From: Hyaloraphidium curvatum
Taxonomy: Eukaryota; Monoblepharomycota; Hyaloraphidiomycetes; Hyaloraphidiales; Hyaloraphidiaceae
Direction: 5' to 3'
NCBI GenBank assembly: GCA_025558095.1
Contig: JAIVFI010000021.1
Coordinates: 372,001 to 436,000, forward strand
Length of the DNA: 64,000 nt
The position numbers and the translations under genes are program-made. Shown here piece by piece: positions 15,877 to 55,841 of the stretch (the stretch's first letter is position 1; the number at the start of each line of letters is the position of its first letter). The notes below the pieces were generated by a model, which searched no databases, was not told the origin of the DNA, and saw only the letters and a program-made list of their open reading frames with translations.

Positions 15877-17145
15877 TCACCTACGAAGCTTATATACTCC
15901 AACACAATCAGTCAAACTATGATTCATGCCTGGTTGAGATGGGCAACTGCGAGGTGGCATCCATATTCTAAAATGCCTCTTATTGCTGGTATAGAGTGAG
16001 CAGTTCTCGACGCTATAGACAGTAGACGTTGGAGATGAAAGCGCATAAACAACGTGACTGAACGTCGATTCAGACATGGTGAGAATCTTTGTCTGCAGAC
16101 GAGACAAGATCAGTATCTCTTCCCACGCAGTGTGGACTGTTTGCGCCCGGAGGGATGGGGCATTCTCCATGGATGCTTGCAGTGAAACATTCAGATGCAG
16201 TAACCGATTGCTGAAATGCGAAACCATGTGGCGGCGAAAATCAATCGAATCTGTGGCGAGGAAGACATACTTCCATGTTCCTGCTTCAAGGAAAGTCCGC
16301 CTAATGCAATCTGCCGCCGCAACCGTATCCTTCACATAAACCACCCGCAAGTGTACCCCAAGAATGGCCGATGTGTCCCACTGGTCCATGCTTCCAAGCA
16401 GCTTCTCTTGCTGTTCTCGAATATGTTGCTGCACGGCCCCAGTGGGTGCAAGAAACGCGGCCGAAAGGTGCCCAATGATGCTATTTGTTGCGGGGAAGTA
16501 GCTTTCCAGCAAAGGCTTGACGTTCGGATTCTCAGCGAGGGAAGCAATGTAGTAGAGGTTCGATGAGATCGCCAGGTTCGGGCATTTGCTCAGTAACGGA
16601 TCTGAGGTGAAATTGGCGCAGGACAAGGCATTCCAGCAGCCATCCTTAGGCGATTGCTCCGGTGGGGCATATATCGATAACGTCCATTCACACTGCGCAG
16701 ATGGCAGCGGTTCGTTGGCCGGCCACCGGATGCTCGCTGGCAGATTAACGATGTCTGACAGATCCGCAAGTTCGGCCGCACCGTTCCATGCGTACCGAAA
16801 GGACCGCCGAAGAACTACAGACAAAGTCAAGGCCGAAACGAATTGCAGGATGTTGTTTCCCAATCCTTGCTTATTTCCTTTGAAAATAACAGTCCCCGCT
16901 GGAGTTGAAGGTAACTCGTTCAAACGGCGGAAGTCACGGAGGAAAGTGGAATTCTCGTCAACCGGAAAAGGAAAGAAGCCGAGATGTCCCACGTGAGCAG
17001 AAGAATTTAACGGACGTTGCAGGATCGAATGGCCAATCGTGTGTAGGGAGTCTGTCCGTTGGAAAGAGACGTGCAATGCGAAGAACACAAGGAGCACAAC
17101 AGAAGCCGGCATCAAAAGATCCGCGAGAATCTGCGTCCTCACCAT
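15877..17145 (-). CDS. Fucosyltransferase-like type II membrane enzyme
   Basis: 422 residues, single exon, ATG at 17145. An N-terminal anchor (MPASVVLLVFFALHVSF) is followed by a luminal domain. GNKQGLGNNILQFVSALTLS resembles the G.(G)..N.......A lead motif of GDP-fucose-dependent transferases. ILGVHLRVVYVKD fits the H.R donor-binding motif shared by GT11, GT23, GT37 and related families. A late STFSHVVYALSS fits their C-terminal S.FS..A block. Several Cys and N-glycosylation sites (NSS, NCS) suit a secretory location. I infer a GDP-fucosyltransferase-like fold; the exact family is not fixed. Confidence 0.6.
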   Translation of the reverse strand: MVRTQILADLLMPASVVLLVFFALHVSFQRTDSLHTIGHSILQRPLNSSAHVGHLGFFPFPVDENSTFLRDFRRLNELPSTPAGTVIFKGNKQGLGNNILQFVSALTLSVVLRRSFRYAWNGAAELADLSDIVNLPASIRWPANEPLPSAQCEWTLSIYAPPEQSPKDGCWNALSCANFTSDPLLSKCPNLAISSNLYYIASLAENPNVKPLLESYFPATNSIIGHLSAAFLAPTGAVQQHIREQQEKLLGSMDQWDTSAILGVHLRVVYVKDTVAAADCIRRTFLEAGTWKYVFLATDSIDFRRHMVSHFSNRLLHLNVSLQASMENAPSLRAQTVHTAWEEILILSRLQTKILTMSESTFSHVVYALSSPTSTVYSVENCSLYTSNKRHFRIWMPPRSCPSQPGMNHSLTDCVGVYKLRR

Positions 17146-17290
17146 GATGCATTGACTCCCGCACTACTGGGCATCCAATGTTTTAACGCATAGTTAATTG
17201 CTTCGAGGATAGACGGGTCGCTTCGTGCAGCTCGCACTACATTATTGGCCCCTATTGCTACGACACTTCTTGTTTCCATTCCAAATTCTC

Positions 17291-18247
17291 ATGTTCTCCG
17301 GCCGAACAATATCTATTGCCACTGCGATCTTCCTCGTCTTCTTGCTCTCCTCGTCTTTCGTCTTTTACCGCCCGCCATCGGGGACCGCTCATGTAGACGT
17401 AGAAAACCCCGCCACCCGATTCTGCATTCATCGCAGTCTTTCCAAGCAGATCGACGTAGCGTCTCTTCGTTCCTCGGTCGCCGCTGCGACGCGATTTTGG
17501 ACTCGTGGCATTGCACAAACGCTTCAATCGATGCTCGATTTAAACGAAACCGGAGGTTACCGGGATGGGACTGGCCCCACCGGGCACCACGTCTTCGACG
17601 TCCTGGGCCCCATTGGGCCACGCTGTAGACAGATCGACAGGTTGGGAACTGGAGACTTGGAGAAGAGAGTTTGTGGACTCCAGTCAATGATTGGTGACCA
17701 GGCAGCATGCCACGTAATCTCGGTCGGTGGCAACAATCAATGGGAGTTCGAAGCAGCAGTACATACTCGGACAAGCTGCAAAGTCCACACATTTGATTGC
17801 ACCGTTAATGGGACGGTCCCACAAGCGTTGCAAGACCGAGTGTTCTTTTACAAACTCTGCTTGGGAGCCAAAGACATGCCCGAAAACTCCAAGAGGCGCT
17901 TTGTAAACTGGGCAACGATGCTTCAAACCGCGGGGTTAGATCGATCTCCGTCGTACGTGAAGATGGATATCGAGGGTTACGAATTTCCCGCTCTCCGGAG
18001 CATTTTGGACAGCAACAGGAGCCTTCTGCCTCTCCAGATAGCTATGGAGATACATTACATGACACATGGTCACCTGATCGACTTACCAATGCACAATCGG
18101 CTGCTCACTCCGGGAGAAATCGCCCTTTTCATGATGGAGCTCTTCCACACTGGCCAGTACCTGCTTCTGGACCGGAATGACAACCCTTTCTGCCAACATT
18201 GTAGTGAAGTACTCCTTGCAAGATTCGCGTGTGACTCCACTACATAA
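17291..18247 (+). CDS. FkbM/METTL24-like methyltransferase domain, type II membrane protein
   Basis: From the ATG at 17291 (318 residues) the protein begins FSGRTISIATAIFLVFLLSS, a signal anchor. The luminal region has Cys residues and ends with the signature SPSYVKMDIEGYEFPAL, the K.DIEG.E motif of FkbM-type enzymes. The SAM strand is weaker (CHVISVGGNNQWEFEAA), followed by THTFDCT-like sequence. This layout resembles Methyltransf_22/METTL24-type proteins, whose substrates are unknown. The upstream in-frame extension to 17225 lacks an ATG. Single exon; 145 bp from the divergent fucosyltransferase-like gene, so the two may share a promoter. Confidence 0.7.
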   Translation: MFSGRTISIATAIFLVFLLSSSFVFYRPPSGTAHVDVENPATRFCIHRSLSKQIDVASLRSSVAAATRFWTRGIAQTLQSMLDLNETGGYRDGTGPTGHHVFDVLGPIGPRCRQIDRLGTGDLEKRVCGLQSMIGDQAACHVISVGGNNQWEFEAAVHTRTSCKVHTFDCTVNGTVPQALQDRVFFYKLCLGAKDMPENSKRRFVNWATMLQTAGLDRSPSYVKMDIEGYEFPALRSILDSNRSLLPLQIAMEIHYMTHGHLIDLPMHNRLLTPGEIALFMMELFHTGQYLLLDRNDNPFCQHCSEVLLARFACDSTT

Positions 18248-18428
18248 TGGGGCTTGGCGGTCCCTCACGCTTAGTCACGGGCGGCACCTTTTCGTCGGTG
18301 ATGCTGCGGCCCATAGTCGCACGCAATGCAGATTCGACACCGGCCGCCCCGTTCACGGCCCCACTACACTCGGCAGCATTGCGATGCTCCGAACAGTCTC
18401 CTCTTGTGAGGCTCCGACAAGGAGACAA

Positions 18429-19088
18429 TCACACCACCTTTCGGTCCATCTCCTCAGGCAAAGTGTCTGCGAATCCTGCTAATTTTGATACAACAAGGGC
18501 GATCCGGGAATGAAGTACGCTGGATAATCGGGAGGCAAGCTCGTCCGTGTTGTTTGCATACCAAGTAAAGGATCCTTGAAGAAACTGGCCAAGCTCTCTT
18601 CGGCGTTTATGCACCCGATTCGTTCAAGGGGCACGATTCCAGCGCGCGAACGAAGCCGTCGAGCATATAATCAACAGAGGTCCGGCGGACTGAATCGAAA
18701 GTTGATTGGGTCCAGCGCCCTAGATACGGGTTGGCGACGCAATCTGCGGCCGTGGTGACAGAGACGAACGTGAGACTACTTGAGTCGGAGCGCAATGCGA
18801 AGAGGAAGTCGGCCGACAAGCGATGACAGTCCAAGTACAACTGTCCTGGGATCCGGTGCCAATTTTGCAGTCGACCACAGGCTACGGTTTGGACCTTCTT
18901 TAGTCAATCACGGAAGCCAAATGGAGCAAGTAGCTACCAGCACGAACAGCCGAGCCAGCTGGATCGAGCGAGAACGGCAGAGACACTAGATCATGTTGGA
19001 TGGATTGAAAGGCATTGAATTGAAATGCGGTTCCTTGCGAAAAACGCACTGACGGCCCGAGGGGACCGGCATAGAAGTTGATCTTCAA
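18429..19088 (-). pseudogene. Possible decayed or intron-broken protein-coding sequence, unknown family
   Basis: On the minus strand three successive short frames look protein-like: FYAGPLGPSVRFSQGTAFQF (about 19080), then QLYLDCHRLSADFLFALRSD (about 18840), then GSFTWYANNTDELASRL (about 18560). They are separated by stops and frame changes. A GTGATT..CCCAG intron could join the first two, but I cannot rebuild a complete gene. Composition resembles the neighbouring glycan enzymes. It may be a relic of a glycosyltransferase gene; no catalytic motif is recognised. Confidence 0.3.
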
Positions 19089-19204
19089 CTACGGTTGCTT
19101 GCGATTGAAGTAGTCCGCGCGAGTAAAAGTGATGGAAACGAAACATCGCCGAATTCCCGAGTCGTTCCGTCCCGAGGACCGTACTATTCTGAAGTTCAAC
19201 TACC

Positions 19205-21163
19205 ATGAATGTCACAGAGGATGAATTCGACAGCACTCTGTTCGGCTTCAAGGTTGGGCGATTGTCAGCGACGGCTTCGGGGGACCAGAGCTCCATCATC
19301 ATGGCAGCCCTGCAGAAGGCGCATTCGGACGGGTTCCACCTCATCTACATCTTTGGTCCAACCCTAAAAGACACGGCGCAAGAGTCGCATGCCGGCTCAA
19401 CGGTACCAGGTTTCAAGGTCGATGTCAGAACCGAGTTCTCGTGTAGACTACGGGACCTCGACCCCAAGGCGCTGGTAAAGGCCGCGTACCTCTCTCCAAC
19501 CATAAGAGTCGTGAACATGTGCGAAGATTCCGCGGCTCTGAGGAAGATTGCGCTTGCCGCGGGAGAATGGTCGCGCTACCGTACGGACCCTTGGCTGCCC
19601 AAGAGCGCCTTTCACGACATGTACGAGCAAATGCTGACGAACTCCATCAACCGCTCGTTTGCCGACGAGATGTTCGTGGCCCGGAATGTGGAAAATGGCC
19701 AGGAAGCCGGCTTGATCACTGTGAAAACCAAGGGCTCAAATGTTCAGATCGGCCTCCTTGCTGTTTTACCCGAGTACCGCCAACAGGGCATTGGTTCTAT
19801 GCTGCTGAGTCGCGCTGCTTTGTGGGCGTTGGAGAACATTGGATGGCAGCCTGAAGCCACCATTTCAGTGATCACACAGGGCCGGAACTACCCCGCTTGC
19901 CAGTTGTACCGCAAGTTTGGCCTGCACGTGGTCGGACAGCAGGACGTGCACCATGCTTGGTTGCCCCAGCATCTAATGGAACCTCTTTCACGCGGTGATA
20001 CCGGGCCTGTACCGTTCTGTAGGCAGCACATCGTCGGCCAGGAGGCAACGTATGTAGCGCAGGTGCTGTCCACAGGACTGGACAGTGCTTCTCGCTTCAC
20101 CAATATGTGCGCCTCTCGTGTGCAAAGTCTTCTCGGTCCCGAGAGCTCCCGAGTGCTTATCACTCCGTCATGTACCGCAGCTCTGGAAATGGCTGCCCTC
20201 CTGTGCGATTTGCAGCCGGGTGACGAGGTCATCATGCCCTCCTTCACATTCTCGTCAACGGCAAATGCGTTCGTTCTCCGCGGAGCTGTACCCGTATTCG
20301 TTGACGTCCGCGCCGATACGCTTAACATTGATGAGGCTCTCATAGATGCGGCAGTTACAGCAAAGACACGCGCAATATGCTGCGTTCACTACGCAGGCGT
20401 CCCGTGTGAGATGGATGCCATCTGTAGCATTGCACGGCGACATGGTTTGCTGGTAGTGGAGGATGCCGCACAGGGTTTTCTTTCCACGTACAAGGGTCGT
20501 CAGCTTGGCTCGATTGGAGACTTCGGATGCATCTCCTTTCATTACACCAAGAATGTTATTTGTGGAGAAGGGGGCGCGCTGTCGATCAATCGATCAAGTG
20601 AGCGAGCCCGACGAGCGCTGCTAGTGTGGGAGAAAGGAACAAACCGCTACGATTTCCTCATGGGAAAGATCGACAAGTACGAATGGGTGGATGTTGGGTC
20701 ATCGCACGTCCCAAATGAAGTTTCTTGTGCCATCTTGAATGCGCAGCTGGAGCGGTGCGAGGAAATCACGGCCAAGAGGGTGGCCAATCACGCGCGATAC
20801 CTTGAAGGCTTCAAGGATCTCATAGCGCAGGGTGTCTTTCGTGTCCCCCACGTGCCGCCTGGATGTACGATCAACGGCCACATTTTCTTCCTGGTTTTCC
20901 CTTCCACGGACGTCAAGGAACAGTTTGCAGCGGGCTTGAAGGCTGCTGGCATCACGGCATTTTCGCATTATTCGCCGTTGCACAGTTCAGTAGCAGGCTT
21001 GAAATATGGCCGAGCATCAGGAAGGATGGAAATTACAAGCAGCGTGCACGCGAGATTGCTGAGGCTTCCTATGTGGCCAGGGCTTTCGAGCGTAGAAGCT
21101 GCTTCGATCATTGATATGGTGCACAAACTTTCCGCGCGCTTCGTGCAGTCCAGAACGAGCTGA
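19205..21163 (+). CDS. Fused WecD-type N-acetyltransferase and WecE-type sugar aminotransferase
   Basis: One uninterrupted ORF of 652 residues. Residues 1-260 are a GNAT acyltransferase like bacterial WecD/RffC: DSTLFGFKVGRL at the start and the acetyl-CoA motif LPEYRQQGIGSMLLSRA. Residues 270-650 are a PLP aminotransferase of the DegT/DnrJ/EryC1/StrS family, closest to WecE/RffA: PSCTAALEMAALL, VVEDAAQGF, the PLP lysine K449 in SFHYTKN, EKGTNRYDFLMGKIDKYEW and FSHYSPLHSS. In enterobacteria the two enzymes convert dTDP-4-keto-6-deoxyglucose to dTDP-Fuc4NAc. Here the order WecD then WecE, adjacent in the bacterial operon, is fused into one chain with no intron. Horizontal transfer is the simplest reading. 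Confidence 0.9.
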   Translation: MNVTEDEFDSTLFGFKVGRLSATASGDQSSIIMAALQKAHSDGFHLIYIFGPTLKDTAQESHAGSTVPGFKVDVRTEFSCRLRDLDPKALVKAAYLSPTIRVVNMCEDSAALRKIALAAGEWSRYRTDPWLPKSAFHDMYEQMLTNSINRSFADEMFVARNVENGQEAGLITVKTKGSNVQIGLLAVLPEYRQQGIGSMLLSRAALWALENIGWQPEATISVITQGRNYPACQLYRKFGLHVVGQQDVHHAWLPQHLMEPLSRGDTGPVPFCRQHIVGQEATYVAQVLSTGLDSASRFTNMCASRVQSLLGPESSRVLITPSCTAALEMAALLCDLQPGDEVIMPSFTFSSTANAFVLRGAVPVFVDVRADTLNIDEALIDAAVTAKTRAICCVHYAGVPCEMDAICSIARRHGLLVVEDAAQGFLSTYKGRQLGSIGDFGCISFHYTKNVICGEGGALSINRSSERARRALLVWEKGTNRYDFLMGKIDKYEWVDVGSSHVPNEVSCAILNAQLERCEEITAKRVANHARYLEGFKDLIAQGVFRVPHVPPGCTINGHIFFLVFPSTDVKEQFAAGLKAAGITAFSHYSPLHSSVAGLKYGRASGRMEITSSVHARLLRLPMWPGLSSVEAASIIDMVHKLSARFVQSRTS

Positions 21164-21580
21164 GGGAGCGGGACGCTCAAAGGCTAGCTTTCGGGCTGCG
21201 TCGCTGTGACCGATGGCACTAGCGGGATGACGCATGAACTCTAAGGGGATGGGGCTGATCCGGACCGTGTGGCGACGCTGCTGACCGTCGCGGTGGGCAT
21301 GTTTGGGCTGATTGGGGGCGCGGGGGTGCACCTGACTGTTGCATGAGGATGAGGAGTGTGCATAGCTAGAGCTAGCAAAGCAAAGGGAAATAGACCTCCA
21401 CATTGTAGACCCACGTCCCAACAGTTCATTTACTAGCCTTCGCTGAACAGCCTTTCTAGGTTGGCGGCTGCGAAAGTCGACGCTCCGGCAGTCTCCTGGG
21501 GCCGGCTCACGATTTCGAAAGAATTAGACGAATGATCAGACATCAAACGAGGCCGTTCTCGCTTCGTTTATTGGTGATTG
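21164..21580. other. Convergent 3' intergenic region, no supported gene
   Basis: Lies between the stops of two convergent genes. Only short ORFs with no recognisable motif are present; it presumably holds both 3' UTRs. Confidence 0.4.
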
Positions 21581-22810
21581 TCAGCAACCATGACTGGGAA
21601 GACAGTAGGGAGGTTGCTGGAGCACCGAATTCGGCCAGAGGACAGAAGACCATTCAAATGGCCTACGTGGATTCCATGTCCAGTCTAGCGACTTTGGGGA
21701 TGTTGGTACCTTGTACGCTTTGAAGGTTTGCGTCCAGGGCATGGAAAAGTTCTGTGAGCAAGAGCTCTCATTTTTGACATTTTCACAGTTTGCTTGGTGC
21801 TGGATAGGAAGAAGGAGTTGTGTGGTTTGGTTTGCATTCAAAAAAAAAGATGTCAGCAGGTACAGGTGCGGATCGCCCCACCGGTGCTTAAATGCACCGT
21901 GGACGTTATCAAAATGCCACACGGTGTTCAGGTATGCGGGCGAACGGGCGAAAGCGGTATCAAATATGAAAGCGAACCCGTACCACGTCCAATACTTGGG
22001 CTTTCGATTCACATCCTGAAGGGGCTTTAGCTGATTGTACCTCAACAAGTCTTCCGCAGTTTCATATAGATTCACGACCACGTGGGGTTGATCGATGACC
22101 TCAACTACATATGCCGCCATAATATTACGCCTCTTCAGATGTTCAAACACGTCGAAATCGATCCGTTCCACTAGAGCCGCGTCTGCATCCAGTTTAAAGA
22201 TGTATCGGTATCCAAAGAAAGCCCGATGCAATGGCCAGCGGTAGATGTTTGTTCGAATCATATGCAGGTATTCGGGATACCAATTGAACAATTTGTATCC
22301 AGTCCGATTAAAGACTGCAAGATACTCCTCATCGATCAAGGCACGGCCAACGAACTCGATTCTGGAACGCGTCCAAGATCTGATGGTATCAATAGTCTGT
22401 TGAGGAAGATCCTCGTGGAGCAAAATCACGGGATAGTGAAACTGGTCGTTGAACGAGACGTCAAGAGATTGCAAACATCTCTTCAACAAGTGTGCCCGGT
22501 CGTCATCATGGTGGCTCCACAATATCATGAAAGCGCCCAGGCCGGATGTTGGGAAGTCTGCACTGTTTTGTAACGCGGAGCCCCAGACATTAGCTTCAAC
22601 GCTACGAGAGTAGAACTTATAGAAGTCTTGAATAAACGGATTATCGTTCGTCTCTCTCCTCTTCTCTTCTGCAACGTCCGCTTTTTCGCAAAAGCTGGCA
22701 ACTTCCCCGGGATTCGAGTGATCCAAAGCGGAAACCAAGAATGCAACGATGGCCAAAGGAAGAAGGACCTTAACATTCAAAGCTCGCTGTACTTCGGCGC
22801 TCAAGGGCAT
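21581..22810 (-). CDS. GT15 (Kre2/Mnt1-type) alpha-mannosyltransferase
   Basis: 409 residues from the ATG at 22810, single exon. An N-terminal anchor (VLLPLAIVAFLVSAL) precedes a catalytic domain with GT15 hallmarks: AFMILWSHHDDDRAHLL at the start, FHYPVILLHEDLP, YRYIFKLDADAALVERIDFD containing the D.D metal site, YWTWYGFAFIFD and HRWGDPHLYLL near the end. GT15 is essentially a fungal family of Golgi mannosyltransferases that extend O- and N-linked mannans. Domain length fits. This gene is one of the strongest pointers to a fungal host. Its particular linkage cannot be read from sequence. Confidence 0.85.
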   Translation of the reverse strand: MPLSAEVQRALNVKVLLPLAIVAFLVSALDHSNPGEVASFCEKADVAEEKRRETNDNPFIQDFYKFYSRSVEANVWGSALQNSADFPTSGLGAFMILWSHHDDDRAHLLKRCLQSLDVSFNDQFHYPVILLHEDLPQQTIDTIRSWTRSRIEFVGRALIDEEYLAVFNRTGYKLFNWYPEYLHMIRTNIYRWPLHRAFFGYRYIFKLDADAALVERIDFDVFEHLKRRNIMAAYVVEVIDQPHVVVNLYETAEDLLRYNQLKPLQDVNRKPKYWTWYGFAFIFDTAFARSPAYLNTVWHFDNVHGAFKHRWGDPHLYLLTSFFLNANQTTQLLLPIQHQANCENVKNESSCSQNFSMPWTQTFKAYKVPTSPKSLDWTWNPRRPFEWSSVLWPNSVLQQPPYCLPSHGC

Positions 22811-22967
22811 GGTCAATGCTTTCCGCTGACAACCAAATCCTGGGAAGAGTGCAGAAGATTCATGGTCTACAAACAGTTAAGTTGTATGGCGGCCGGAACC
22901 GCACTTCCGCCTTTCGCGAGGGCCGGACAACTCAAGGGTTACAACTCAAGGGTTCGAGGGTTATGAG

Positions 22968-24142
22968 ATGATGAGAGCGAATAATCGACACTTGAATCAC
23001 AGCTCGTCCGCAACCTCAATGACCCGAGTCTGCATCGTCGGCACCGGAGCAATCGGCTCGTTCGTCGCGGCCAAGTTGGCCTTGACTGCCGTGAACCCGC
23101 CGACTGTCACGGTGGTTGCGCGAGGCGCGAACCTGGAAGCGATCCGCTCAGGTGGCATCTCGCTCCTGGACCATGACGGCGTGGAAATTGGTCGTGCCCG
23201 CAACGTGGTTGCCGTCGAATCGACAAAGGAAGCGGGGCCGCAGGATGTCGTCGTGCTGGCAGTCAAGGCGCACCAGGTTGGAGACGTCGCGGACTCGCTC
23301 GCGAATCTGTACACCGACAACACCGTGGTGGTGACCATGCAGAATGGGTATGTCGTGTGGCGCGTCTCCAACCGCGATTTGTGCTGAACGGACTCACCAT
23401 GTGAAGGATTCCGTTCTGGTACTTTCGGAACCTCTCGGCGCGGCCGGATCTCGCGTCGACCGCCATCCGGACCGTGGATCCCGACGGCACGCTCGCAGAC
23501 AGGGTGCAGGTGGAGCGCATCATCGGGTGCGTTGTGTACCCGGCAACCGATCGGCCCGCTCCGGGGTTCGTGCGCCACATCGAAGGGGACAGGTTCCCGG
23601 TCGGAGAACTGGACGGTCGCCTGACGCCGCGGGTCCGAATGGTGTCGGATCTGTTGCAGGCAGCCGGGCTGAAGGCACCAGTATTCCACCACGATTCCGA
23701 CAAGGCGGGGACGAAGGACATTCGCGACGAGATCTGGCTCAAGCTGTGGGGCAACCTGTCCTTCAACCCGATCTCGGCGCTCACGCACGCAACGCTTGTT
23801 GATCTCTGCACGTTCCCCTTGACGAGGGAACTGGCGGCTGCAATGATGAGGGAAGCTCAGGGGGTAGCGGAGAGCCTGGGTGCGCACTTCAGGGTGACAC
23901 TGGAAAAGCGAATCGCCGGGGGCGCTGCGGTCGGCAAGCACAAGACATCCACACTCCAAGACGTGGAGGTGGGAAACGACCCAGAGGTAGATGCTCTTGT
24001 CGGCGCTGTGGCGGAGCTCGGGACAGTGGCCGGATTGCCCACGCCGCATATTGACGCGGTTTTCGCCTGCGTGAAGCTGCTTGCCAAGGTCATGGCGGAG
24101 GAGAAGAGCGCATGTAGGATGGTTCCAGTCGTCGTACAATGA
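22968..24142 (+). CDS. panE: 2-dehydropantoate 2-reductase (ketopantoate reductase)
   Basis: Two exons, 22968-23347 and 23407-24142. The NADP-binding start is RVCIVGTGAIGSFVAAKLA, followed by DVVVLAVKAHQ and VVTMQNG. Splicing out the 59-nt intron (GTATGT..GTGAAG) restores QNGIPFWYFRN, the family motif across the active-site strand. The C-terminal helical domain has EIWLKLWGNLSFNPISALT with the catalytic Lys and Asn, and LQDVEVG. The enzyme makes pantoate for vitamin B5 and CoA. The ATG at 22968 gives a 17-residue extension before MTRVCIVG (ATG at 23019); either start is possible. Ends 5 bp from the convergent PCS gene stop. Confidence 0.85.
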
Positions 24143-24147
24143 GACTT

Positions 24148-25376
24148 TTACTGGCAATCGCAAGTCTGCTGTGTTTTGGCCTCCCACTCCAACCTCCAGT
24201 TCTCCACAGCGGCCCGCAGAACGGGCCATCCCTCGGTGCTGCGCGCGCTTTCGACGAGCTCGTACATATTCGGGAACGCAGAAAGGATCAACGGCTTGAA
24301 GCAGGCCGGTGGTAGCGCCAAAAGCAGCAGTGCGAATCGCTCGCTTTCGACTCCGAAGTCCGAACCCGCCTCGAACACCAACGACGAAACGTCTTTGAAG
24401 AGGGGATGCTGGCGGACCGTCGCATCAATTAGAGGTGTCGTCCTCGGAAGGAACATGTCCATAATGGAGGCAGGCAAATCTGACACATGGCTGACCACCG
24501 TGGTGACGGCGAGGTCTATGACGGATCGCAGCGTCGGCGATGTCGTGAATTCCATCGCCTCTCGCTGTTCCGCGGCACTCAGGTGGTTGACAGGAGGGTA
24601 CAATTGCCGAAAAGCGTCCGGGATCACCTGTGAAATGAGCGTGTCCAGTCCAGCCCGCTTCACACCAAGTGACGGGGCGGAAGTGAGGTCAATGTTGAGC
24701 TCCTCATTTGCAGTTGCCATGCTCTCGCCCAGCTTGCAGACCGACATGCTCGACTTCCGCATAGGCACGGGAGTCCCCGGAGCAGACGCTTGCGACAATG
24801 TTTGATTGCCCTTCGCCTTACGAAGTAAGTACCAGCCGCGCGACAGGCCCGTTTCGCGGTCGATCTGCTTCATGGCTTCGAAAAGCAGCCGTGCAGGGGC
24901 AAAATAGGCTGGCCACAACGGTCCCGTGAGCGTGAGTCCTGCTTGCGCAATGCGAACGCCTACCTGGATACTTGAACCGAGCAACATCAAGCACCAGAGC
25001 ATACGGCTCTGATCCATCGGCCGGCTCGTACAGGGCAGCCACGGGACTGAAGTGCCCATCGCCCGTCTGACCCAGGTGCTTCCGCGAAAAGCTCACGACC
25101 ATCTGCACATCACCGGAGCCACTGCACACCTCCTTCAGGTCAGCAAGGAAGTCTGCGTATGTGAAGCGATCACCACGCTTGGCCACCACGTCCAGGCCAT
25201 TGCAGGTTGCCAGGCGCGCAAAAGCGCCGAAAGTAATGCCCCTGCCATGTAATTCCTCCAGCGGAGATAGGCAAGAAAGAGTTGCGTCCGACCACCAGCG
25301 CCAGACCCCCTTCCAAGGTCGTTGTGGGTCGATCGCCAGCGCGTTAAGTGCCATCGCCAGTGCAGCCGGCCCGCAG
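24148..25376 (-). CDS. Phytochelatin synthase-like gene, 5' exon missing
   Basis: Exons 25376-24964 and 24908-24148. The first visible exon starts at an acceptor (GCCGCAG) in the middle of the active-site helix. It encodes SCGPAALAMALNALAID with the catalytic Cys, then DGHFSPVAAL with the His and LVLDVARFKYP with the Asp, so the triad is intact. The 55-nt intron removed, FKYPAYFAPARLLFEAMKQ follows the normal PCS order. A C-terminal region of about 230 residues, variable in this family, reaches the stop. No N-terminal exon encoding the usual RPLP..L..F..S start is found upstream, because the preceding PCS gene ends 12 bp away. It could be a pseudogene, or a second domain spliced to upstream sequence. 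Confidence 0.7.
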
Positions 25377-25387
25377 CTGCGGCACGC

Positions 25388-26590
25388 TCAAACAGCACCA
25401 CGGAGTGCCGTCATCAGGAAGCGAGAGCATGCATTGACCACGCCCGCCAGAGTCGAAGTGGCCGTGGTTGATCTACGCCAAGCTGCAGTTGAAAGTGATG
25501 ATGCTAAGCTGGCATGGATGATTGAACTCGACGGTGTCGAACTCGACCATGTCCGCGAGAGCGCAGGGACGTGAACACGGGGTCGGCAGCTAAGTCGATG
25601 GATGGGAAGCACGTTTGACCCCGGCGGTAATAGCGCCCTAGCTCCGAGGACGGCGCTGCCAGCGCAGACATCCCGTTCTCCGCTTGTCATAAAGTGCCCC
25701 CGCTTCTCCACCAAATTGAGTCCAAATTTCCGGCGAGTGAATGCGCTTTTCGAAAAATGGCGGGAAAAAAACGTGGTCCCGCCAAGGGAGGTCACGCGTG
25801 GCCCCGTGGGCTTTGCAGGCGATGTGAAGTCAGCCCCACCTGAAGGAGGGACAAAAAGTGGCGGTGGATCTGACGCCCGCGATAGGACCGCGAAACCCCT
25901 AGGCTTGCCAGTCACGCTGTCTAGTTTGCCCAGAGATGCCCACAGGGTGGAAATGTCGGCCCAGTACGTGGGGTATTTGAATCTGGCGACGTCCAGAACC
26001 AGAACGCGATCGTCCTGAGGAGAATAGCCACCCAAAGGGGAGAAGTGGCCATCACCTGTCTGACCTAGCGTTGCCCGGTCGTAAGCAACGCAGAGCACAG
26101 CCGGCATCCCGGTGCCGATGGTGGAGAAGGACGAAGTGAGCGCGATGGCCCTCCGGAACTCGTCTTCCGAAGACGAGTCAGCCCGAAAAACGTCCGCCCT
26201 GAGCCCGTTGCACCCCGCAAGGCAGGCAAACTCGTCCAAAGTGAGGCCTTTCTCCCGCACCGTCTCGAGCGGTCGGCAGCAGTCAAGCAGAGTCTCGTCG
26301 TAGTGACGCCAAACCCCCTTCCACGGTCTCCCTGGGTCTACCTCGAGAGCGTTGAGAACGGTGGCAAGGGTGCCAAGGCCGCAGAACGCGGGTTCGGATT
26401 GGGTCACGAGGTGCGTAACGAGAAGGAAGAAAGCGTCGAGATAGGAGGAGGGGCGGCCGGAGGATGCCTCGGCAGGGAATGGCAGGTCTGAGGAGCCCGC
26501 GGCCATCGCGCGGCCAAAAATCGCGCGGCCCTCTGATGAGCTGAACGGGACCAGAGAGGGCGGGAGCGGCCGTCTGTAGAATGTCTGCAT
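25388..26590 (-). CDS. Phytochelatin synthase
   Basis: 400 residues from the ATG at 26590. The start TFYRRPLPPSL is typical of the PCS N-terminus. The catalytic triad is visible: Cys70 in TQSEPAFCGLGTL, His182 in TGDGHFSPLGG and Asp200 in VLVLDVARFKYP. GKPRGFAVLSR closes the peptidase C83-like domain near residue 230. The enzyme makes phytochelatins (poly gamma-Glu-Cys-Gly) from glutathione in response to heavy metals. A short insertion (about residues 33-48) precedes the catalytic helix. The last about 165 residues are basic and not conserved, and an unrecognised intron there is possible. The gene lies head-to-tail with the truncated copy that follows it. Confidence 0.85.
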   Translation of the reverse strand: MQTFYRRPLPPSLVPFSSSEGRAIFGRAMAAGSSDLPFPAEASSGRPSSYLDAFFLLVTHLVTQSEPAFCGLGTLATVLNALEVDPGRPWKGVWRHYDETLLDCCRPLETVREKGLTLDEFACLAGCNGLRADVFRADSSSEDEFRRAIALTSSFSTIGTGMPAVLCVAYDRATLGQTGDGHFSPLGGYSPQDDRVLVLDVARFKYPTYWADISTLWASLGKLDSVTGKPRGFAVLSRASDPPPLFVPPSGGADFTSPAKPTGPRVTSLGGTTFFSRHFSKSAFTRRKFGLNLVEKRGHFMTSGERDVCAGSAVLGARALLPPGSNVLPIHRLSCRPRVHVPALSRTWSSSTPSSSIIHASLASSLSTAAWRRSTTATSTLAGVVNACSRFLMTALRGAV

Positions 26591-27469
26591 GGTGGATTCC
26601 CCTTTGCGGCACACGATGCGGCGCGGCTGATGCTGATCGTTGGGCGCCGACCTAATCATGGCCGGAACCATGCTACGAGCGGACACTTTTTAATTATTTC
26701 GGGTCAGGGGGGCGGAGCCCCCCGGTTTTATTCATTTTGAGGCCATTTTCGGCTTCCGGACATTTGAATGTCGCTGTCTGCGGTTGTCGATCGCGGAGTC
26801 CCGGAGTCCGAAGTGAAGCGGGTTCGAGGCGTCTCCGACCAAGCATGGAGAAAGTGACGCACGTTATCAAAAAGTGCTGCGACTCGATGAACACAATGGA
26901 TGCCGCCGTGGTGACCTCACTGCTGGTCAGGTCGCGGTCTTGCGGGGCACCTCGATTGTGCTGTTCGCCGGAGCCCCACGCTTCAGCGCTGCTGTCTCCG
27001 GCGTCTGAGTCTAGGCATGGCGCTGCCCATCACTAATCTAGGGGCCTGGTGGCCCACCAATCAGCGAATCGCCAATCATGGTGCACACGTTGAACGGGCA
27101 ACCTGGAGCCTGACTCTTCGAAGGCCGGTGGGCACGGCGGCCGCGGCTTAAACCCGGTCGTCACGTTGATACGCCCGCTCTGTACGACGCAATGTAGTTC
27201 AGATGCCCTCCAGCTCAGGGACCCCGCCGGCACGCTCGCCGCCGATGATCCCCATCTCCAGGCGCTCAAGCACGCCACCGGAACAGTTCCAACTTCCAAA
27301 AACGGAAAGCGTTCCAAACACATAGCAGCCCTCGGCGCTGTCGGATCTCCTTTGAGCCATGGTTCGCGTCTGATGTCTGGAGAGCGATTGCGCAAGGAGT
27401 TCCAGAATTGCTCGATCCAGTGGCTTGGTCACCCCAGTTCTCTACCGTCGACGGCAACGATAATCTTCA
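26591..27469. other. Gene-poor region
   Basis: Contains the PCS promoter region, an A/T-richer patch around 26690-26760 with a perfect hairpin, and short ORFs without motifs. No gene is supported. Confidence 0.4.
26707..26723. repeat. Perfect 7-bp GC hairpin with GGA loop
   Basis: GGGGGGC and GCCCCCC flank a 3-nt GGA loop. The hairpin is followed by CGGTTTTATT, about 117 bp upstream of the PCS start codon on that gene's side. Such short GC palindromes are common as dispersed repeats; function is not known. Confidence 0.5.
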
Positions 27470-53588: not shown

Positions 53589-55841
53589 ATGCGGTTGGCC
53601 AAACCGAGGTTATTGCTCCTGTTCCTTGCGGCGCTTCTCTTTGGACTCTACCGTCTATTGCGGCTGAGGACCCCGGACGACCGGCCACGCTATGCCCCGT
53701 GCGGCGGTTTGGGAGGCAGTGCTCCTCCATCCTTACGCATTTTCAAGCCGTTGATTCCAGCAAGGAAGCAAACGGATCTTTCTCCCGCTGACTTCATTCC
53801 TGCCGAGCTCTTTTATGTCATGGGACAGCAGTCGGACTTGAGACCCGACGACGTCACTGCACTGGCCGACAGTTTGCATTCCTTGGGAGTCAACACCTCA
53901 TCTTCTATGGTGTTTTTTGCCTTCCTAGAAAATTTCCGGCGCGACTATGGATTTGCTACTCCGGAAGCTGCGCTGCAGTCGATACGCGAGGTTTCGACGA
54001 CGCCAAAGTCCAAGTGGTTCTGGCGCTACTTCTGCTACCGCTTTCTAAACCAGGCAAGCTTGCTGGATCTCCCTGCCGTTGAGCTGCAATCTCGCTATGA
54101 AGCGGTTTTCCTGGAGTTTCGTCCGCTTCCCCATGTCGAGTTCGTCATCCGGAACACTTTTCGCAACCTCGGACCGGGGTGGATGCTGCGACTCGTGTGC
54201 GGCCACAGGAGCTGTGAGCTCCTGCGAGATATTGCTGCTCGCGTATCGCCTCATGTTGTCGTTGCACATCACGACATTGACGAAAAGGACGTGAATGGCT
54301 ACAACGACTTGCTTCTTTCCCAAGAATTCTGGGAAAGCTTGGAAGGCGAAAAGATCCTTATTTTTCAGGAGGACAGCATCGTATTCCGGCCCGGCGTGCA
54401 CCGATTCATGAGCTATGACTTTGTCGGCAGCCCTTGGCCACGAGACGTCAACGATACCCCTGGGGCTGTAGGTAACGGCGGCATCTCGCTCCGAACGCGT
54501 TCGAAAATGCTTGATGCGTTGAAGCGGATCCGATTTGAAGACTTGAGGCTCTCTCCTGGTACGGCGACCTATGTGAGAAAGGTTGGACTACAGCGACCCC
54601 CAGAGGACGTATTCTTTGCGCAGGCTCTCTCTGTTTATGGAGTGGGGCATTTGGCCCCGCGAGAGATCGCCATGTCGTGGATAGAGAGCCACGACAGCAA
54701 CTTTCCCTTCGCCGGCCACGACTTTTGGCAGACGAAATCGGATTGGGTGCCGTTTCTCGACCTTTCTTTCATCGTTCGCATGTCTTTCCCTACGGTCAGC
54801 CGGTTGGAGGTTCATGACGATAACACCCGTGGTACACATCTGCGAAGTGCCGTTCCTTCTGTATCTGCAATCTCTTCTGGAAACGGCATCCGCAACTCCT
54901 GGTCTCGTGTTCTGCGTCGCATGGCCGAGTTCGAGCTTTTCTCATCCTCAGAATCGCCCTTGAACCCGTCGAGGTACGCTCTTGTGGATTCGCTGGACAT
55001 TTTTGTGGCACCATCGGTGGCTGCACCGCCCGAATCCCGCATTATCGCATTTTTCCATGGCGTTGAATCTGCTCGTCCAATCAACGGAATTTGCACTGTT
55101 GAACAGCTGTGGAAAAGCGAAAGCTTCCTCGCTGCCTTGCCTCGTATCGATCTCATAATGACCTTCACTGAGCACGTCGCAGATGTCATACGAGCCACAA
55201 TTCTCGCTACTAAAGGAGCGATTGCAAGAGTGCGTGTTGTGCCTTTTCCTATTACAGACATGGACCGAGTGAAAATCGGCGAGAATGCTGTTCCTGAACG
55301 CCCAGAGAACAGATCAGTGCTGACGGTTGCATCAAGCTTGACCTTCGTTTCTTCCATTTATCGTCTCATTGCTCCAGAGTGGACGAAGGTCGTTGCTATT
55401 CCCGGTGATTTTGCAGCAGATCAGACAACTTACCTGGGAAGAGTGAGGCAGGAGCTGCGAAACTGGAAAGTGGACGAAAGCATCGTTGACGTTTCGCATG
55501 TGCAAGTGCGACTGGCTCAGAATCCTAGCGACTTTGTCTTGGGCTGTCAGGTTCTTTTCCTCCACTTTCGAACATTGAATTACTTTCCACTTCTTCTGGA
55601 AGCTGTTGCATTTCAAACGCCTATCCTTGTGAACAGGCACCCCGCTGTCGAGGAACTTCTTGGTTCTTCCTATCCTTTGTTTTTCGAGACACTCGATGAA
55701 GCGTCCTCGCTGTTGCAGTCCCTGACTGGAGAGGTCATTGCCTGTGTTAAGAGGCACTTTCAAGACATCTCGAAGCGGCGCACGCTCAATAATTTCGTTC
55801 TTCAAGTCTACAACGTTGTCCACGATGTAATGGCATTGTAA
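53589..55841 (+). CDS. Membrane-anchored DUF5672-type glycosyltransferase with a second GT-like C-terminal half
   Basis: 750 residues, no intron. A signal anchor (LLLLFLAALLFGLYRLL) is followed by a helical N-terminal part. The central domain (about residues 165-390) has PLPHVEFVIRNTFRNLG, LLLSQEFWESL, ILIFQEDSIVF with an acidic ED motif, YDFVGSPWP and GAVGNGGISLRTRSKML. This is the pattern of DUF5672 putative glycosyltransferases. The last about 300 residues have a Rossmann-like layout (IIAFFHGVESA, DLIMTFTEHVADVI, FLHFRTLNYFPLLLEAVAF) that resembles a GT4-type C-terminal domain. It lies next to the GT2-GT4 gene on the same strand. Substrates unknown. Confidence 0.75.
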   Translation: MRLAKPRLLLLFLAALLFGLYRLLRLRTPDDRPRYAPCGGLGGSAPPSLRIFKPLIPARKQTDLSPADFIPAELFYVMGQQSDLRPDDVTALADSLHSLGVNTSSSMVFFAFLENFRRDYGFATPEAALQSIREVSTTPKSKWFWRYFCYRFLNQASLLDLPAVELQSRYEAVFLEFRPLPHVEFVIRNTFRNLGPGWMLRLVCGHRSCELLRDIAARVSPHVVVAHHDIDEKDVNGYNDLLLSQEFWESLEGEKILIFQEDSIVFRPGVHRFMSYDFVGSPWPRDVNDTPGAVGNGGISLRTRSKMLDALKRIRFEDLRLSPGTATYVRKVGLQRPPEDVFFAQALSVYGVGHLAPREIAMSWIESHDSNFPFAGHDFWQTKSDWVPFLDLSFIVRMSFPTVSRLEVHDDNTRGTHLRSAVPSVSAISSGNGIRNSWSRVLRRMAEFELFSSSESPLNPSRYALVDSLDIFVAPSVAAPPESRIIAFFHGVESARPINGICTVEQLWKSESFLAALPRIDLIMTFTEHVADVIRATILATKGAIARVRVVPFPITDMDRVKIGENAVPERPENRSVLTVASSLTFVSSIYRLIAPEWTKVVAIPGDFAADQTTYLGRVRQELRNWKVDESIVDVSHVQVRLAQNPSDFVLGCQVLFLHFRTLNYFPLLLEAVAFQTPILVNRHPAVEELLGSSYPLFFETLDEASSLLQSLTGEVIACVKRHFQDISKRRTLNNFVLQVYNVVHDVMAL

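Follow-up and report, generated by a model that had tools for sequence, protein, structure and literature searches.

The systems closest to a fusion of WecD with WecE have been described in enterobacteria, a dinoflagellate, and mimivirus. Among the features named for WecE are the PLP lysine, a cofactor aspartate, and a conserved glutamine (PMC7439462). In the dinoflagellate Karenia brevis, MviM-WecE has been read as a fused bacterial pair (PMC2064935), and in mimivirus the separate genes R141, L136, and L142 lead by way of UDP-4-keto-6-deoxyglucose to UDP-Vio4NAc (PMC10117803). The same intermediate is the product of fungal and human relatives of the 4,6-dehydratase (PMC12488480, PMC5698552); fungal UG46DH and human TGDS form it from UDP-glucose (PMC12488480). 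NRS/ER, its usual consumer, has been resolved as specific to Dikarya (PMC8092308).

The window analyzed here, the whole stretch of 64,000 nucleotides, belongs to a 706-kb contig (C21) of the Hyaloraphidium curvatum genome, which comprises 31.9 Mb in 55 contigs. It contains a single open reading frame (ORF) in which a WecD-like half precedes a WecE-type half. With a probability of roughly 70%, this ORF is read here as a bifunctional, bacterial-type fusion, derived from a non-enterobacterial gene pair, that would convert UDP-4-keto-6-deoxyglucose to a Fuc4NAc-type sugar, probably UDP-linked. The features of the fusion and its neighbors are as follows.

15877..17145, − strand: putative glycosyltransferase, fucosyltransferase-like (PF03254 at 23.3 bits, cut-off 23.4)
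17225..18247, + strand: Methyltransf_22 protein (Pfam)
19205..21163, + strand: whole fused ORF, P0001, 652 aa (ORF call, Pfam, NCBIfam)
19205..19969, + strand: WecD-like GNAT N-acetyltransferase half, aa 1-255 (Pfam, NCBIfam, Ramlibacter alignment, AlphaFold model)
19778..19795, + strand: acetyl-CoA motif RQQGIG, aa 192-197 (translation, family alignment)
19907..19909, + strand: Tyr235 of the GNAT half (nearly invariant column of the GNAT family alignment)
19970..20008, + strand: inter-domain linker, aa 256-268, LPQHLMEPLSRGDTGPVPF, with the similar LPQHILEPAAVRADVGPIPF in the second copy
20009..21130, + strand: WecE-type PLP sugar aminotransferase half, aa 269-642 (Pfam, NCBIfam, solved WecE)
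20549..20551, + strand: PLP Schiff-base lysine K449 (aligned with WecE; invariant column)
21581..22816, − strand: weak GT15-like glycosyltransferase (weak Pfam-based match)

P0001 runs from ATG to TGA through 652 codons without an internal stop, and its N terminus is considered correct because a Ramlibacter GNAT aligns with it from Met1. Pfam places GNAT (PF13508) at aa 155-239 and DegT_DnrJ_EryC1 (PF01041) at aa 280-639 (1.4e-76). In NCBIfam, the C-terminal half scores 478.1 bits with the dTDP-4-amino-4,6-dideoxygalactose transaminase model (NF008687, cut-off 375) and 448.9 bits with TIGR02379 (cut-off 434.85). The best solved match of the protein is WecE (4piw, 7e-107), and K449, located within SFHYTKN..GEGG, is the counterpart of the SFHETKN lysine of solved WecE. 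K449 and the cofactor aspartate D420 are invariant in 27 aligned sequences, and the conserved glutamine Q423 is present in both fungal copies of the fusion. The N-terminal half, whose best solved match is WecD (2fs5, 2e-5), scores significantly with the WecD model NF008212 (68 bits, 1e-18) yet far under the cut-off of 219, and reaches 49.6 bits with TIGR02382, under the cut-off of 195.1, in a comparison confined to the fungal GNAT half. The AlphaFold model of this half has a pLDDT of 91, and its top solved structural match is again WecD 2fs5 (TM 0.79 by target length); around the linker, at aa 249-263, model confidence is low. The acetyl-CoA motif and the nearly invariant family residues are retained in the family alignment. 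In its modeled fold, its acetyl-CoA motif, and its physical linkage to WecE, here as a fusion, the GNAT half is of WecD type. These results bear out the preliminary description of the locus as a single fused frame in which the PLP lysine and the acetyl-CoA motif are intact. The ORF is also intronless, as had been described, though this says little about its history because the neighboring glycan ORFs are single open frames as well.

A family search of the genome recovered a second complete GNAT-WecE fusion on another contig (P0005 on C39), which is 48% identical to P0001 over 624 aa, with both halves and the linker conserved. P0005 reaches 403.5 bits with the WecE model whose cut-off is 375, yet its 358.6 bits with TIGR02379 fall under 434.85. 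Where P0005 starts is uncertain, as roughly 30 N-terminal residues of P0001 lack a clear counterpart in its frame. The GC content at third codon positions (GC3) is 0.93 in the C39 copy, like that of other host genes, and 0.63 in P0001, like that of its low-GC glycan neighbors. In both halves, nonsynonymous divergence between the copies is well under synonymous divergence, which is near-saturated. No unfused GNAT of this type was found in the host genome. Since the two copies pair in the GNAT and aminotransferase trees alike (100/99 in each), the sequences indicate that fusion preceded gene duplication.

A search with the aminotransferase half gave the 80 best bacterial WecE loci, which are 47-54% identical to it and none of which carries a fused GNAT. 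A GNAT profile search of about 1,120 prokaryote genomes returned good matches in 36, many of the verrucomicrobial ones adjoining WecE, and no GNAT-WecE fusion in any of the genomes searched; among plasmid and phage records, none covers 80% of the fusion. Enterobacteria, Ramlibacter, and Verrucomicrobia have a GNAT gene immediately before WecE and in the same orientation, the GNAT-first pairs of the latter two groups comprising Ramlibacter and more than ten Verrucomicrobia. The two genes are enterobacterial neighbors, as had been noted, but the pairing is not limited to that group. In Ramlibacter, the pair is preceded by a WecF-family gene. A viral origin was rejected, as viral contigs held only bacterial-type WecE (~50%) or distant aminotransferases and no GNAT fusion. 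Two viral-labeled contigs place WecE-type aminotransferases beside hexapeptide acetyltransferases, and one of them also holds an RmlB-like dehydratase.

Separate trees place each half among bacterial sequences, which indicates bacterial ancestry for both. In the GNAT tree, the fungal copies lie within a clade of Ramlibacter and Verrucomicrobia (98/98), whereas in the aminotransferase tree their nearest relatives are Gallionellales-type betaproteobacteria, with weak support. The AU test rejected trees that group the fungal GNAT half (p = 0.0004) or the fungal aminotransferase half (p = 0.014) with enterobacteria, which removes the enterobacterial common antigen (ECA) operon as the source. Of the earlier proposal of operon transfer followed by fusion, an ancestry in neighboring WecD and WecE genes is likely on this evidence, and the enterobacterial operon is abandoned. 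It is plausible that one donor supplied both halves. The adjacent pair of a non-enterobacterial donor would have been fused ahead of the duplication in the fungal nuclear genome. It is unlikely, though still worth weighing, that the fusion instead arose outside this fungal lineage, in an unsampled bacterium or another eukaryote, and was then passed on. The long stem beneath the two fungal copies in both trees is compatible with such a course, as is the limited, all-prokaryote set of genomes searched with the GNAT profile, but the absence of fused forms from that set, from the 80 best WecE loci, and from plasmid and phage records speaks against it.

For the bifunctional reading, the fungus's own UDP-glucose 4,6-dehydratase would provide UDP-4-keto-6-deoxyglucose as the probable substrate; this is the simplest assumption. 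Both halves would be catalytic. The C-terminal half would transaminate the NDP-4-keto-6-deoxyglucose at C4, using PLP on K449 and glutamate as the donor, and the N-terminal half would acetylate the new amine from acetyl-CoA to yield an NDP-4-acetamido-4,6-dideoxyhexose. Tyr235 is presumably catalytic in the second step, by equivalence to E. coli WecD. The product would probably be of the galacto series (Fuc4NAc), a C4 configuration predicted from WecE membership only. We infer that UDP is its carrier and that it is used in surface glycans. It is improbable, more so than an origin of the fusion outside the lineage, that a bifunctional enzyme acts here on another substrate, giving the gluco epimer (UDP-viosamine/Vio4NAc), or on another acyl acceptor. 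A different acceptor is conceivable for the GNAT half, whose scores are far short of the WecD equivalog cut-offs, and the mimivirus route to UDP-Vio4NAc starts from the same intermediate (PMC10117803). The C-terminal half, however, is WecE-type by a curated cut-off and by ~50% identity, and scores 361 bits with solved WecE against 30 bits with mimivirus L136.

A still smaller probability attaches to the proposal that the host makes dTDP-Fuc4NAc with enzymes from the ECA operon. In its favor, the WecE half passes an equivalog cut-off named for a dTDP sugar and enterobacteria show the identical WecD-WecE order; against it stand the rejected enterobacterial grouping of both halves and the results for RmlA, WecF, and RmlB in the fungus. 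A look for RmlA- and RmlB-like genes elsewhere in the genome had been suggested; an exon-by-exon search of the host genome, with possible assembly gaps, returned no RmlA above cut-off, the best score being 39.6 bits against 360.65, and no WecF; these absences are no proof because of the search design and the possible gaps. The best RmlA score belongs to a fusion of a GHMP kinase with a nucleotidyltransferase (NTP_transferase) at L017:1255-3219 (− strand, contig C19). No RmlB match in the host genome exceeded the cut-off, a result on which gaps and introns leave some doubt, and the two top RmlB-like (4,6-dehydratase) matches lie in genes with introns, on C1 and C21. The conceptual protein of the C1 gene scores 293 bits with 6vlo, which we take to be mimivirus R141, and 283 bits with the best bacterial RmlB, a narrow margin in a comparison with solved structures. 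Mimivirus R141 is a UDP-sugar enzyme (PMC10117803). A dTDP carrier is doubtful, since the search gave neither RmlA nor WecF and the nearest 4,6-dehydratases look to be of the UDP type, by the narrow margin given; a dTDP route is conceivable because some algae hold TDP-glucose (PMC6556577). The amino-sugar product put forward in the preliminary description is retained, and its dTDP link is not.

Despite the bacterial look of both halves, bacterial contamination or an assembly chimera is scarcely credible, given the length of the contig, its eukaryotic and partly intron-bearing neighbors (phytochelatin synthase, PRMT5, ubiquilin-like and TBC-like proteins, and a ketopantoate reductase divided between two frames), and a second fused copy with a conserved linker on a separate contig, with host-like GC3 and following a reading frame that resembles holocytochrome c synthase. 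The host itself is identified as a fungus because the fungal chitin synthase N-terminal domain has three matches in its genome and none in 14 prokaryote controls. Within the window, the glycan-type genes at 16001-24000 form a low-GC island of 52-55%, in surroundings of ~60% GC, and share their GC3 with P0001. A phytochelatin synthase gene (25388-26686) lies alongside a similar frame (24818-25354) as an apparent tandem pair (24148-26686), and a GT2/GT4 glycosyltransferase lies next to a DUF5672 protein (53589-55841, 92.6 bits) whose C-terminal part is long. Elsewhere, an SDR epimerase-like gene scores identically at C33:155056-155954 and C53:987-1885, and C53 may be a redundant contig.

Fusion is a recurrent feature of amino-sugar enzymes in this genome. 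Beyond the two WecD-WecE fusions, the DegT family has seven matches, one of them a weak fragment. Three of the rest are fusions as well: a single ORF that joins FdtA ketoisomerase to an FdtB/QdtB-like aminotransferase (C24, 605.5-607.5 kb), a NeuD/PglD-type acetyltransferase with a DegT aminotransferase (C20), and an RfbH-like aminotransferase with a GDP-fucose-synthase-like SDR (C5). A further FdtA, at L161:904-2013 (− strand, C46), is joined to a QdtC/FdtC-like hexapeptide acetyltransferase, in a domain order opposite to that of the solved WxcM-like protein 4mzu. Because of these enzymes together, a Fuc3NAc/Qui3NAc-type sugar is also predicted. A broader proposal, to which we give slightly less than an even chance, is that this modular and largely fused bacterial-type set converts the fungus's own UDP-4-keto-6-deoxyglucose to at least two UDP-linked acetamido-dideoxyhexoses, of Fuc4NAc and Fuc3NAc/Qui3NAc types, for surface glycans undescribed in fungi.

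A literature search, conducted mostly outside subscription papers, found no mention of a WecD-WecE fusion or of fungal Fuc4NAc, and the family is absent from the main text of two broad transfer surveys. Neither 4-amino- nor 3-amino-dideoxyhexoses are listed in fungal surveys, and a nucleotide-sugar survey of 491 fungal genomes mentions neither aminotransferases nor dTDP sugars (PMC8092308). The novelty of the fungal fusion is provisional on this basis and on sequence searches that covered prokaryote genomes and plasmid, phage, and viral records, and the analysis suggests that the surface glycans of this fungus contain a sugar unknown from fungi. Should the product be made, the surface chemistry of fungi would be broader than thought, and UDP-4-keto-6-deoxyglucose in early fungi would gain a consumer beyond the Dikarya-specific NRS/ER. 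The locus also illustrates cleanly how two genes in an operon-like arrangement became a single eukaryotic gene, and this genome contains further fused pairs.

Compared with known systems, the fusion is predicted to carry out the same two reactions as WecD and WecE (RffC and RffA) of E. coli in ECA synthesis. E. coli WecE is ~50% identical to the fungal C-terminal half, and E. coli WecD has the closest fold to the modeled GNAT half. However, the E. coli enzymes are encoded by separate genes, whereas the fungal halves are fused, lie outside the enterobacterial groups, and probably use UDP as the carrier in a genome in which RmlA and WecF were not found. The Ramlibacter and Verrucomicrobia pairs, some of which include the nearest GNAT relatives, have the same order as the fungal fusion but remain two separate genes. 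Mimivirus likewise combines a 4,6-dehydratase, a C4 aminotransferase, and an N-acetyltransferase in a eukaryotic setting, although its aminotransferase is separate, its L142 acetyltransferase is fused to a glycosyltransferase, and its product is of the gluco series. The nearest precedent is MviM-WecE of K. brevis, in which a bacterial sugar aminotransferase and its operon partner were fused after transfer and exist in several copies (PMC2064935). There, the partner is a dehydrogenase rather than an acetyltransferase, and the K. brevis "WECE" belongs with aminotransferases of the FdtB/QdtB and desosamine types, apart from the true WecE.
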